Assembly: GCA_030019205.1 (NCBI GenBank)
Contig: JASEFH010000001.1
Location: 1 to 64,000, forward strand
Source of the DNA: Methanomicrobiales archaeon
GTDB taxonomy: Archaea > Halobacteriota > Methanomicrobia > Methanomicrobiales > JACTUA01
Reading direction: 5' to 3'
Length of the DNA: 64,000 nucleotides
The notes beneath the pieces are model-generated. The model was given only the letters and a program-made list of their open reading frames with translations. It ran no database searches and had not been told where the DNA came from. Positions 55,178 through 56,708 of this stretch are shown in pieces. Each line of letters starts with the position of its first letter. The first letter of the stretch is position 1. The translations under genes were made by a program, and so were the position numbers.

Positions 55178-55486
55178 ATGTCTGTGGTGATTGTATGCCT
55201 GACCGCACGCAACATGGCCTTTGACACGGATAGCATAACGGTTCCCGCCGCTGCCGAGGTGACCGTTCAGTTCCGGAACCTGGACGACGGAATCTCCCAT
55301 AATCTCTCCGTCTACCGCTCGCCCGATCGGGTGGACACGATCTTCAGGGGAGAGCCCATCTCCGGTCCGGGGATCGCCAGCTATACGTTCACGGCACCCC
55401 GGGAGCCGGGCACGTACTACTTTCAATGCGATATGTACCCCGACCTCATGTACGGAGAGTTCATCGTCGAGGAGGAGGGCGTTTAA
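55178..55486 (+). CDS. small cupredoxin-like protein
   Basis: A 102-residue single cupredoxin domain without a signal peptide (it begins MSVVIVCLTARNMAF). Copper-site positions: the first His is in ISHNLSVY, the Cys in YFQCDMYPDLM, and the last Met in DLM. The second His, expected as CDxHPxxM, is Tyr. It may therefore bind copper weakly or not at all. It ends GEFIVEEE, very like the C-terminal domain of the next gene, which suggests duplication. AGGGAGGG abuts the ATG. Confidence 0.78.
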   Translation: MSVVIVCLTARNMAFDTDSITVPAAAEVTVQFRNLDDGISHNLSVYRSPDRVDTIFRGEPISGPGIASYTFTAPREPGTYYFQCDMYPDLMYGEFIVEEEGV

Positions 55487-55667: not shown

Positions 55668-56708
55668 ATGAAGAGACATTATCGTACCCTGGCATCCCTG
55701 GCGGTAGTGATCGTCTTCGCCCTGCTCGCAGTAGCGGGGGCTCAAGAGGGGCTGGGGAATGTGACCCCCAACGAGACGGCCGCAGGGATGAACCTCACCG
55801 ACGGGAATGTGACTCTGGAGAGGAACATCGCAGAGATCGTCAACGCCACCGAGGATCTCTCCACACTGAACACAGCCCTGGAGGCGACCACTCTCAACCA
55901 GACGCTCCAGGAGCCGGGTCCCTTCACGGTCTTCGCCCCGACAAATGCCGCCTTCGACAGCCTGCCCCCGGGCGTTCTGGATGCGCTGCTCCAGAACGCG
56001 TCGCGGAATGCGACCGAGCAGCGGAACATGACGCAGCAGCAGAACGTTACCCAGAACCAGACCGGGAACCTCACCCAGCAGCAGAACATGACACAACAGC
56101 GGAACATGACACAACAGCAGAACATGACACAACAGCAGAACATGACCGGAAACCAGACCGGGAACCTAACCGATATCCTGCTCTACCATGTCGTGGCGGG
56201 GAACTACAGCGAGATGGAGCTGATGAATCTCACCACTCTGCAGACGCTCCAGGGGGAGAATCTCACGATCGGGACAGTAAACGGCAACCTCACGGTCAAC
56301 AACGCCACAGTCGAGAGTATTATCCCGGCCAGCAATGGGTTCGTCTATACCATCGATGCCGTTCTGATGCCGGGAGAGGCTAATGTGACCGCGAATGAGA
56401 CGGTCCCGTCTGAGCTGACGGCGAATGCGAGTCTGGTAATTACAAACGAGTCCGTGACCCCCGCGACGGTCACGGTTCCGGGCGGTGCGCAGGTGAGTCT
56501 CACCGTGGAGAACCAGGATCTCGACGACGAGCACAATATCATCGTCTACCGTGCCGACAACCGTGACGACATCCTGTTCCAGAGCACGATGATCCCTGCG
56601 GGGAATACGGAAGAGTTCACGTTCATTGCTCCCGGTGAGCCGGGAACGTACGCCTTCGAGGTGGGTCCCGGACCCGACACCATGACTGGCGAGTTCATCG
56701 TGGAATAG
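55668..56708 (+). CDS. secreted fasciclin-cupredoxin fusion protein
   Basis: A 346-residue exported protein. A signal peptide (MKRHYRTLASLAVVIVFAL) is followed by a FAS1 domain: IVNATEDLSTLNTALEATTL and FTVFAPTNAAFDSLPPGVLD, then after an insert, LLYHVVAGNY, FVYTIDAVLMP. Between the two FAS1 halves lies an Asn/Thr/Gln tandem repeat (56025-56171). The C-terminal ~85 residues are cupredoxin-like but lack the Cys (AFEVGPGPDTM). An A+T box (CATTTAAAC) lies 32-40 bp before the ATG. It probably sits on the cell surface as a glycoprotein for adhesion. Confidence 0.85.
   Translation: MKRHYRTLASLAVVIVFALLAVAGAQEGLGNVTPNETAAGMNLTDGNVTLERNIAEIVNATEDLSTLNTALEATTLNQTLQEPGPFTVFAPTNAAFDSLPPGVLDALLQNASRNATEQRNMTQQQNVTQNQTGNLTQQQNMTQQRNMTQQQNMTQQQNMTGNQTGNLTDILLYHVVAGNYSEMELMNLTTLQTLQGENLTIGTVNGNLTVNNATVESIIPASNGFVYTIDAVLMPGEANVTANETVPSELTANASLVITNESVTPATVTVPGGAQVSLTVENQDLDDEHNIIVYRADNRDDILFQSTMIPAGNTEEFTFIAPGEPGTYAFEVGPGPDTMTGEFIVE
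56025..56171 (+). repeat. tandem repeat encoding glycosylation sequons in a FAS1 domain
   Basis: Repeated AACATGACACAACAGCAG-like 18-mers encode NMTQQQ, four to six copies with variants (NVTQNQ, NMTQQR). They are flanked by two copies of AACCAGACCGGGAACCT. Nearly every unit holds an Asn-X-Thr sequon. Confidence 0.9.

Follow-up and report, generated by a model that had tools for sequence, protein, structure and literature searches.

A sequon-rich tandem array within a FAS1 domain of a Methanomicrobiales archaeon, a candidate expandable N-glycan loop

P0001, a FAS1-cupredoxin protein encoded in the window (the whole stretch of 64,000 nucleotides of Methanomicrobiales DNA analysed here), carries a run of N-glycosylation sequons (N-X-S/T) between the two halves of its FAS1 domain, and it is one case of a pattern that recurs in the order, a FAS1 domain with an in-domain sequon array. 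The insert is probably an expandable, N-glycan-bearing loop that was duplicated from a native site and is glycosylated by AglB, with the glycan load set by the number of units; this is the explanation we favour, with moderate confidence.

Results

A FAS1 domain interrupted by a sequon array

The gene and its parts, all on the forward strand, are arranged as follows.

55668-56708, forward strand: coding sequence of P0001, 346 residues, FAS1 and cupredoxin-like domains with an in-domain sequon array (open reading frame, translation, Pfam)
55668-55742, forward strand: signal-peptide-like N-terminus, residues 1-25, MKRHYRT..AVAGA (sequence by eye)
55812-55994, forward strand: FAS1 domain, part 1, about residues 49-109, ending LDALLQ (PDB matches 49-109, alignments A1 and A4, pLDDT)
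55995-56153, forward strand: sequon array insert, residues 110-162 (alignments, PDB matches, low-confidence stretch of the model)
56067-56157, forward strand: core of near-identical 18-bp units of the AACATGACACAACAGCAG type (Tandem Repeats Finder rows; pattern matches 56067-56146)
56154-56375, forward strand: FAS1 domain, part 2, about residues 163-236 (Pfam profile 44-123; PDB matches from 163-168)
56415-56705, forward strand: cupredoxin-like domain, about residues 250-346 (PF13473; fold matches 249-339; alignment A6)

Pfam analysis of P0001 revealed a FAS1 match (PF02469) of 97.6 bits against a cut-off of 22 (E 7.7e-28) in two stretches, and a Cupredoxin_1 match (PF13473) of 35.5 bits against a cut-off of 27 (E 1.1e-8). 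A whole-genome profile search also returned the FAS1 match in two pieces (profile positions 2-75 and 44-123), owing to the segment between the halves. The N-terminus is hydrophobic by eye and ends in AVAGA, and residues 3-20 form a helix in the predicted model at low confidence; we infer from the sequence that the protein is exported. The earlier note on this DNA had described a secreted protein whose FAS1 halves are split by a run of sequons, and the Pfam matches and the translation agree with that description, as does, by eye, the signal-like N-terminus.

The place of the insert in the fold was defined by comparison with solved FAS1 chains. Among the rows listed, the first half of P0001 stopped at residues 108-113 and the second half resumed at 163-168; for the human TGFBI domain (5nv6) the aligned halves stopped at 112 and restarted at 166, with no chain residue between them. 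In alignment A4, about 50 residues were absent at this place in all 32 other rows that cover it, four further rows consisting of the second half alone. The boundaries of the insert were taken as residues 110-162 (bases 55995-56153).

An AlphaFold2 model built from 36 sequences (mean pLDDT 74) was used throughout, and a model built from 11 sequences (mean pLDDT 52) was poor and was discarded. Block means of pLDDT were 91-97 for residues 51-110 and 93-97 for residues 171-230, and values in the stretch between the FAS1 halves were 54-86. The five best fold matches of the model were periostin and TGFBI chains (Z 18.8-19.3; TGFBI Z 19.1), with periostin at Z 19.3 (rmsd 1.8 over 137 residues in the 41-236 part of the model), and MPT70 gave Z 15.2. 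Two model helices, 103-131 and 139-157, run through the insert, mostly at low confidence, and were not trusted. The complete FAS1 fold of the prediction is compatible with an insert that forms a loop excursion between two helices. A structure prediction had been proposed as a check on the insert, and its outcome was favourable, the FAS1 fold being retained around the insert with high pLDDT on both flanks.

These data also bear on whether two gene pieces were joined by the repeat or the region was mis-assembled. The genome is a 73-contig draft and repeats can collapse; however, a single open frame spans both FAS1 halves and the array, the array lies well within a 306-kb contig, and the two halves yield one complete FAS1 fold in the prediction. 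We consider such an artefact very improbable, while the exact copy number of the array could still be off.

The cupredoxin-like domain

The ligand set of a type-1 copper site is His, Cys, His and Met. Alignment A6 revealed that the cupredoxin-like domain of P0001 retains the first His and the Met, and has Val at the Cys position and Gly at the second His position; in the same alignment, a paralogue from the window's own genome has both the Cys and the second His. The fold match of the C-terminal domain to auracyanin was of middling score (Z 7.7, model residues 249-339). Since the Cys and one His of the copper site are lost, ordinary blue-copper electron transfer by this domain is unlikely, judged from the aligned residues. 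Directly upstream of the FAS1 gene, at 55178-55486 on the forward strand, lies a 102-residue cupredoxin-like open reading frame (PF13473) that lacks a signal-like start and has Tyr at the usual second His ligand. Elsewhere in the same genome (contig C10, about 64548-66377; L001, L005), a 1216-residue open frame encodes a cupredoxin that has the full set of four ligands, together with two FAS1 domains and what looks by eye like a propeller; the 1110 residues examined contain 53 sequons.

Units, codons and sequons of the array

Tandem Repeats Finder identified an 18-bp period at 56017-56146 (6.9 copies, 77% matches) and at 56082-56157 (4.2 copies, 87% matches). Two units are exactly AACATGACACAACAGCAG, a third has one base changed and an earlier unit a few, and the remaining units have diverged, some being only four residues long (NQTG, NVTQ). 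The earlier note had spoken of nearly identical 18-mers, which holds for three to four units but not for the diverged or four-residue remainder. Its statement that nearly every unit is a sequon was confirmed: within the 53 residues of the insert, 11 of 11 Asn begin N-X-S/T, ten as N-X-T and one as N-X-S. Asn is encoded in the array by AAC or AAT, Thr by any of three codons, and the middle position is taken by A, M, V, Q or L; set against the steady Asn and Thr/Ser, this position has therefore changed more than the residues that make the sequon. The insert is rich in Asn, Thr, Gln and Met and has no Pro. The motif NQTGNLT is present twice, and its second copy merges with NLTDILLYH, which belongs to the domain itself; as far as the sequence goes, this suggests that the array grew from a site that the loop already had.

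When the insert was extended to residue 168, it contained 12 sequons compared with a shuffled mean of 2.4, and none of 20,000 shuffles reached 12, although the shuffles treat the copies of the repeat as independent, which they are not. The rest of P0001 has 16 sequons (shuffled mean 4.0). The other open frames of at least 150 residues in the window, a crude set that includes non-gene frames, hold 57 sequons in 19,983 residues.

Occurrence of the array and relatives of the gene

Of 199 genomes of the order, one matched a DNA pattern for two N-x-T-Q-Q units, and its sole match was the P0001 gene; the genus is represented by a single genome. Generic period-6 N-X-T arrays were identified in 14 of the 199 genomes, with 1 in the reversed control. 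In 11 of these 14 the array lies within a FAS1-bearing protein, and only in the window's genome is it within the domain; the ten other proteins carry it in a linker or tail beside FAS1. The period-6 array protein of the remaining three genomes (G156, G022 and G139) has no FAS1 by eye. Two such arrays in which a FAS1 domain was not seen by eye have the units NVTVDE (L096, G022) and NRTLDQ (L094, G156). Across the phylum the period-6 pattern matched 34 of 294 genomes and the reversed control 9, so the pattern is a weaker marker at that scale and was set aside there.

A contig scan with P0001 gave two relatives among 29 pattern matches, from Methanoculleus sp. FWC-SCC1 (L050, 43%) and from the metagenome-assembled genome UBA206 (L051, 35%). 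No cupredoxin part was seen by eye in the FAS1 open reading frames of either. The distribution of FAS1 is patchy: among the matches listed, seven fall in the window's genome, one domain being counted twice because it is split, and none in ten family-mates (G001-G010), several of whose genomes are incomplete.

Sequon-rich inserts in other FAS1 domains

We examined a non-random set of FAS1 domains drawn from pattern and profile matches and from stretches picked among the matches listed. Profile-based counts were made on 195 domains and on 198 domains with 5 unpaired hits dropped; the first domain of L178 is absent under the 198-domain rule and present in the 195-domain survey. These counts were preferred to a text-rule survey, which found 133 domains, failed on 58 and overlooked the inserts that L195 and L198 have in loop A. 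In this non-random set, 28 of the 198 distinct domains, the window's included, have at least 15 extra residues. All 28 carry at least 6 sequons per domain, with a mean of 13.3 compared with 3.1 in the 170 compact domains.

The inserts occupy three places in FAS1: loop A, before the YH motif; loop B, after it; and loop C, a later hairpin. Loop A holds the insert of the window protein and those of G027 and G037 (L198 and L195), both from another genus, with NESVE units. Loop B holds NQTG units in a Methanoculleus-type family and NQT, NMT or NVT units in paralogues of Methanoculleus sp. FWC-SCC1 and G079; UBA206 (L051) has one NMTQQQ unit there. Loop C is represented by one G026 protein (L012, contig G026:C25, first open reading frame), with NVTDMNMTEEAGMEE-like units in the late hairpin. 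The unit sequences differ by lineage (NMTQQQ, NESVE, NQTG, NQTMENVTG, NVTDMNMTEEAGMEE), and N-X-S/T is common to all. The earlier note knew of FAS1-cupredoxin fusions but of none with such an insert; P0001 is not unique in having an in-domain sequon insert, since other genera of the order have such inserts with other sequences, mostly in a different loop. A search of titles and abstract openings in an open-access library found no prior report, and no paper there that brings the FAS1 domain together with Methanoculleus. On contig 1 of Methanoculleus sp. FWC-SCC1 (L050, L142), FAS1 paralogues with arrays form a cluster, and an 875-residue protein in it has sequon arrays upstream of, within and downstream of its FAS1 domain.

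The comparison across loops also informs the possibility that the insert carries no glycans and is a Gln/Asn-rich spacer or a coiled segment, acting as an arm, flexible or helical, that sets distance or self-association. The NMTQQQ units are Gln-rich and the low-confidence helices of the model pass through the insert, as such an arm would have it. However, Gln is absent from three arrays that keep their sequons, those in loop A of L195 and L198 and in loop C of L012, and the insert itself is modelled at pLDDT 54-86. We judge an arm of this kind decidedly improbable.

Sequon excess and the case for glycosylation

Most weight was given to a comparison of compact domains, which share ancestry. 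A set of 104 compact FAS1 domains from the order contained 246 sequons and 72 mirror motifs, with 88.7 expected from shuffling. From IMG/VR contigs, 26 distinct FAS1 sequences, taken as bacterial or phage, gave 18 sequons and 29 mirror motifs (19.6 shuffled). As the IMG/VR sequences have no sequon excess, the excess in the order is not a property of the FAS1 fold. In all, 28 predicted viral IMG/VR contigs (L204-L231) encode FAS1 domains. Across 157 compact domains, loop A contained a sequon in 47 and a mirror motif in 2, and loop B a sequon in 60 and a mirror motif in 18. In 17 hand-picked inserts, whose copies are not independent, there were 116 sequons and 68 mirror motifs (25.4 shuffled). 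The mirror motif is frequent in arrays because units four residues apart create it, and there the two can be separated by shuffles alone. Three of the 17 inserts have only 1-2 sequons, a number often reached by shuffles.

A purely neutral origin would have replication slippage lengthen a codon run in a tolerant loop, with sequons that are incidental and mostly unused. Genuine 18-bp tandem repeats are present, the IMG/VR FAS1 sequences also vary in loop B length (alignment A4), and sequons are few in the three hand-picked inserts just described. Against this, the diverged units of P0001 keep Asn first and Thr (ten times) or Ser (once) third, with three Thr codons and a varying middle residue; arrays of unlike sequence have N-X-S/T in common; and the excess extends to compact domains of the order and is absent from the IMG/VR set. 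We regard a neutral repeat as unlikely.

For an N-glycan-bearing loop, the window's genome has three STT3 matches above the cut-off, and the open reading frame at L082 encodes an AglB-type STT3 (TIGR04154, 840 bits compared with a cut-off of 450). A human oligosaccharyltransferase complex is described as skipping closely spaced NXS sites (PMC4750078), and sequons 4-6 residues apart may be only partly filled. Taken together, the sequon-enriched FAS1 domains of the order, the inserts in several loops and the length differences between paralogues described below support, at the level of predicted proteins, the earlier glycan reading.

Array length turnover

Array length was compared between close relatives. 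In one pair of paralogues of Methanoculleus sp. FWC-SCC1 the flanks are alike at 154 of 156 and 110 of 120 bases, and the arrays measure 126 and 228 bases. In a second pair, one member of which is from G119, the flanks are alike at 154 of 156 and 117 of 120 bases, and the arrays, of 183 and 186 bases, are internally rearranged. The flanks of the eight remaining pairings among the five paralogues are 72-90% alike. In loop A, the array has 36 residues in L198 and 31 in L195, with flanks alike at 141 of 162 and 167 of 204 bases. By the text rule, 14 of 15 loop-B open reading frames were measurable and have loop regions of 44-53 residues with 4-7 sequons. A phase-variable, contingency-type repeat locus would differ in copy number between strains; array length turnover, as read from these alignments, is between paralogues and between species, in relatives of the window gene; the differences between paralogues could include gene conversion or assembly error. 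The earlier note had proposed that the repeats could vary in length between strains and set the glycan load or stickiness of the cell surface. Turnover in relatives and paralogues, together with AglB/STT3 in the genome, partly supports that reading.

Discussion

The favoured explanation, an N-glycan-bearing loop that can expand, would begin with an ancestral exported FAS1-cupredoxin protein that had a native N-glycosylation site in the loop before the YH motif. Short DNA units round this site would then have been duplicated in tandem to give the 53-residue run of eleven sequons. During export, the AglB oligosaccharyltransferase would glycosylate many of the array sequons, and one face of a normally folding FAS1 domain would bear a flexible brush of glycans. 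Gain and loss of units would then change the number of glycans and with it the hydration, shielding or adhesion of the surface protein. The steps that we infer are export, the filling of the sites with glycans, the origin of the array from the native site and its influence at the cell surface.

More tentatively, and with somewhat more doubt than conviction, we propose that the FAS1 loops of Methanomicrobiales are recurrent sites of sequon multiplication by DNA tandem duplication and form a length-variable dial of glycan load on adhesion-type proteins of the surface. On this proposal, since at least three loops are used and their unit sequences are unlike, selection would keep the sequon and little else. 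As an extracellular, adhesion-type domain, FAS1 is widespread. If sequon arrays do expand repeatedly in its loops in methanogens, the alleles and paralogues would form a natural series in which to learn how many close-packed sequons AglB fills, how well a fold bears a glycan brush, and whether repeat number is a means by which archaea adjust their surface glycans. Methanoculleus sp. FWC-SCC1, with its neighbouring paralogues, is a test bed.

Compared with FAS1 proteins in general (PF02469), the P0001 domain is complete by Pfam and by predicted fold, with periostin and TGFBI nearest, and differs in the sequon array between its halves. In the available text of a review of FAS1 proteins, four animal four-domain proteins have 0, 1, 5 and 8 N-glycans, plant FAS1 domains have two to eight, and the word 'insertion' does not occur (PMC6032426). 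The same text describes plant FLAs as combining FAS1 domains with low-complexity, glycan-bearing regions (PMC6032426). P0001 resembles them in having FAS1 plus a low-complexity region, which bears glycans in FLAs and is predicted to do so here. The FLA regions, in contrast, are rich in Pro, Ala, Ser and Thr and are O-glycosylated, whereas that of P0001 is N-X-T, Gln-rich and within the domain. P0001 was considered as a plant-type FLA and rejected, its insert being rich in Asn, Thr, Gln and Met with zero Pro; by analogy, the array may function like the FLA glycan region without FLA membership.

Sulfolobus SlaA, with 31 predicted and 27 confirmed N-glycosylation sites (PMC10903991), likewise places many sites on a single archaeal surface protein, those of P0001 being predicted. 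The SlaA sites, however, are spread over some 1,400 residues, and P0001 has its eleven in 53, partly as tandem units.

The Methanoculleus-type FAS1 proteins of the same order (L009-L011, L013, L014, L050, L142, L178) share sequon-dense segments in or beside FAS1, but their inserts lie in loop B or in linkers and are made of other units, while that of the window protein lies in loop A. Borg elements have in-gene tandem repeats that produce disordered protein segments. They and the P0001-type arrays are alike as archaeal in-gene DNA tandem repeats that give low-complexity protein inserts; the arrays described here differ in that they consist of sequons, lie in loops of a single domain family and are apparently chromosomal.
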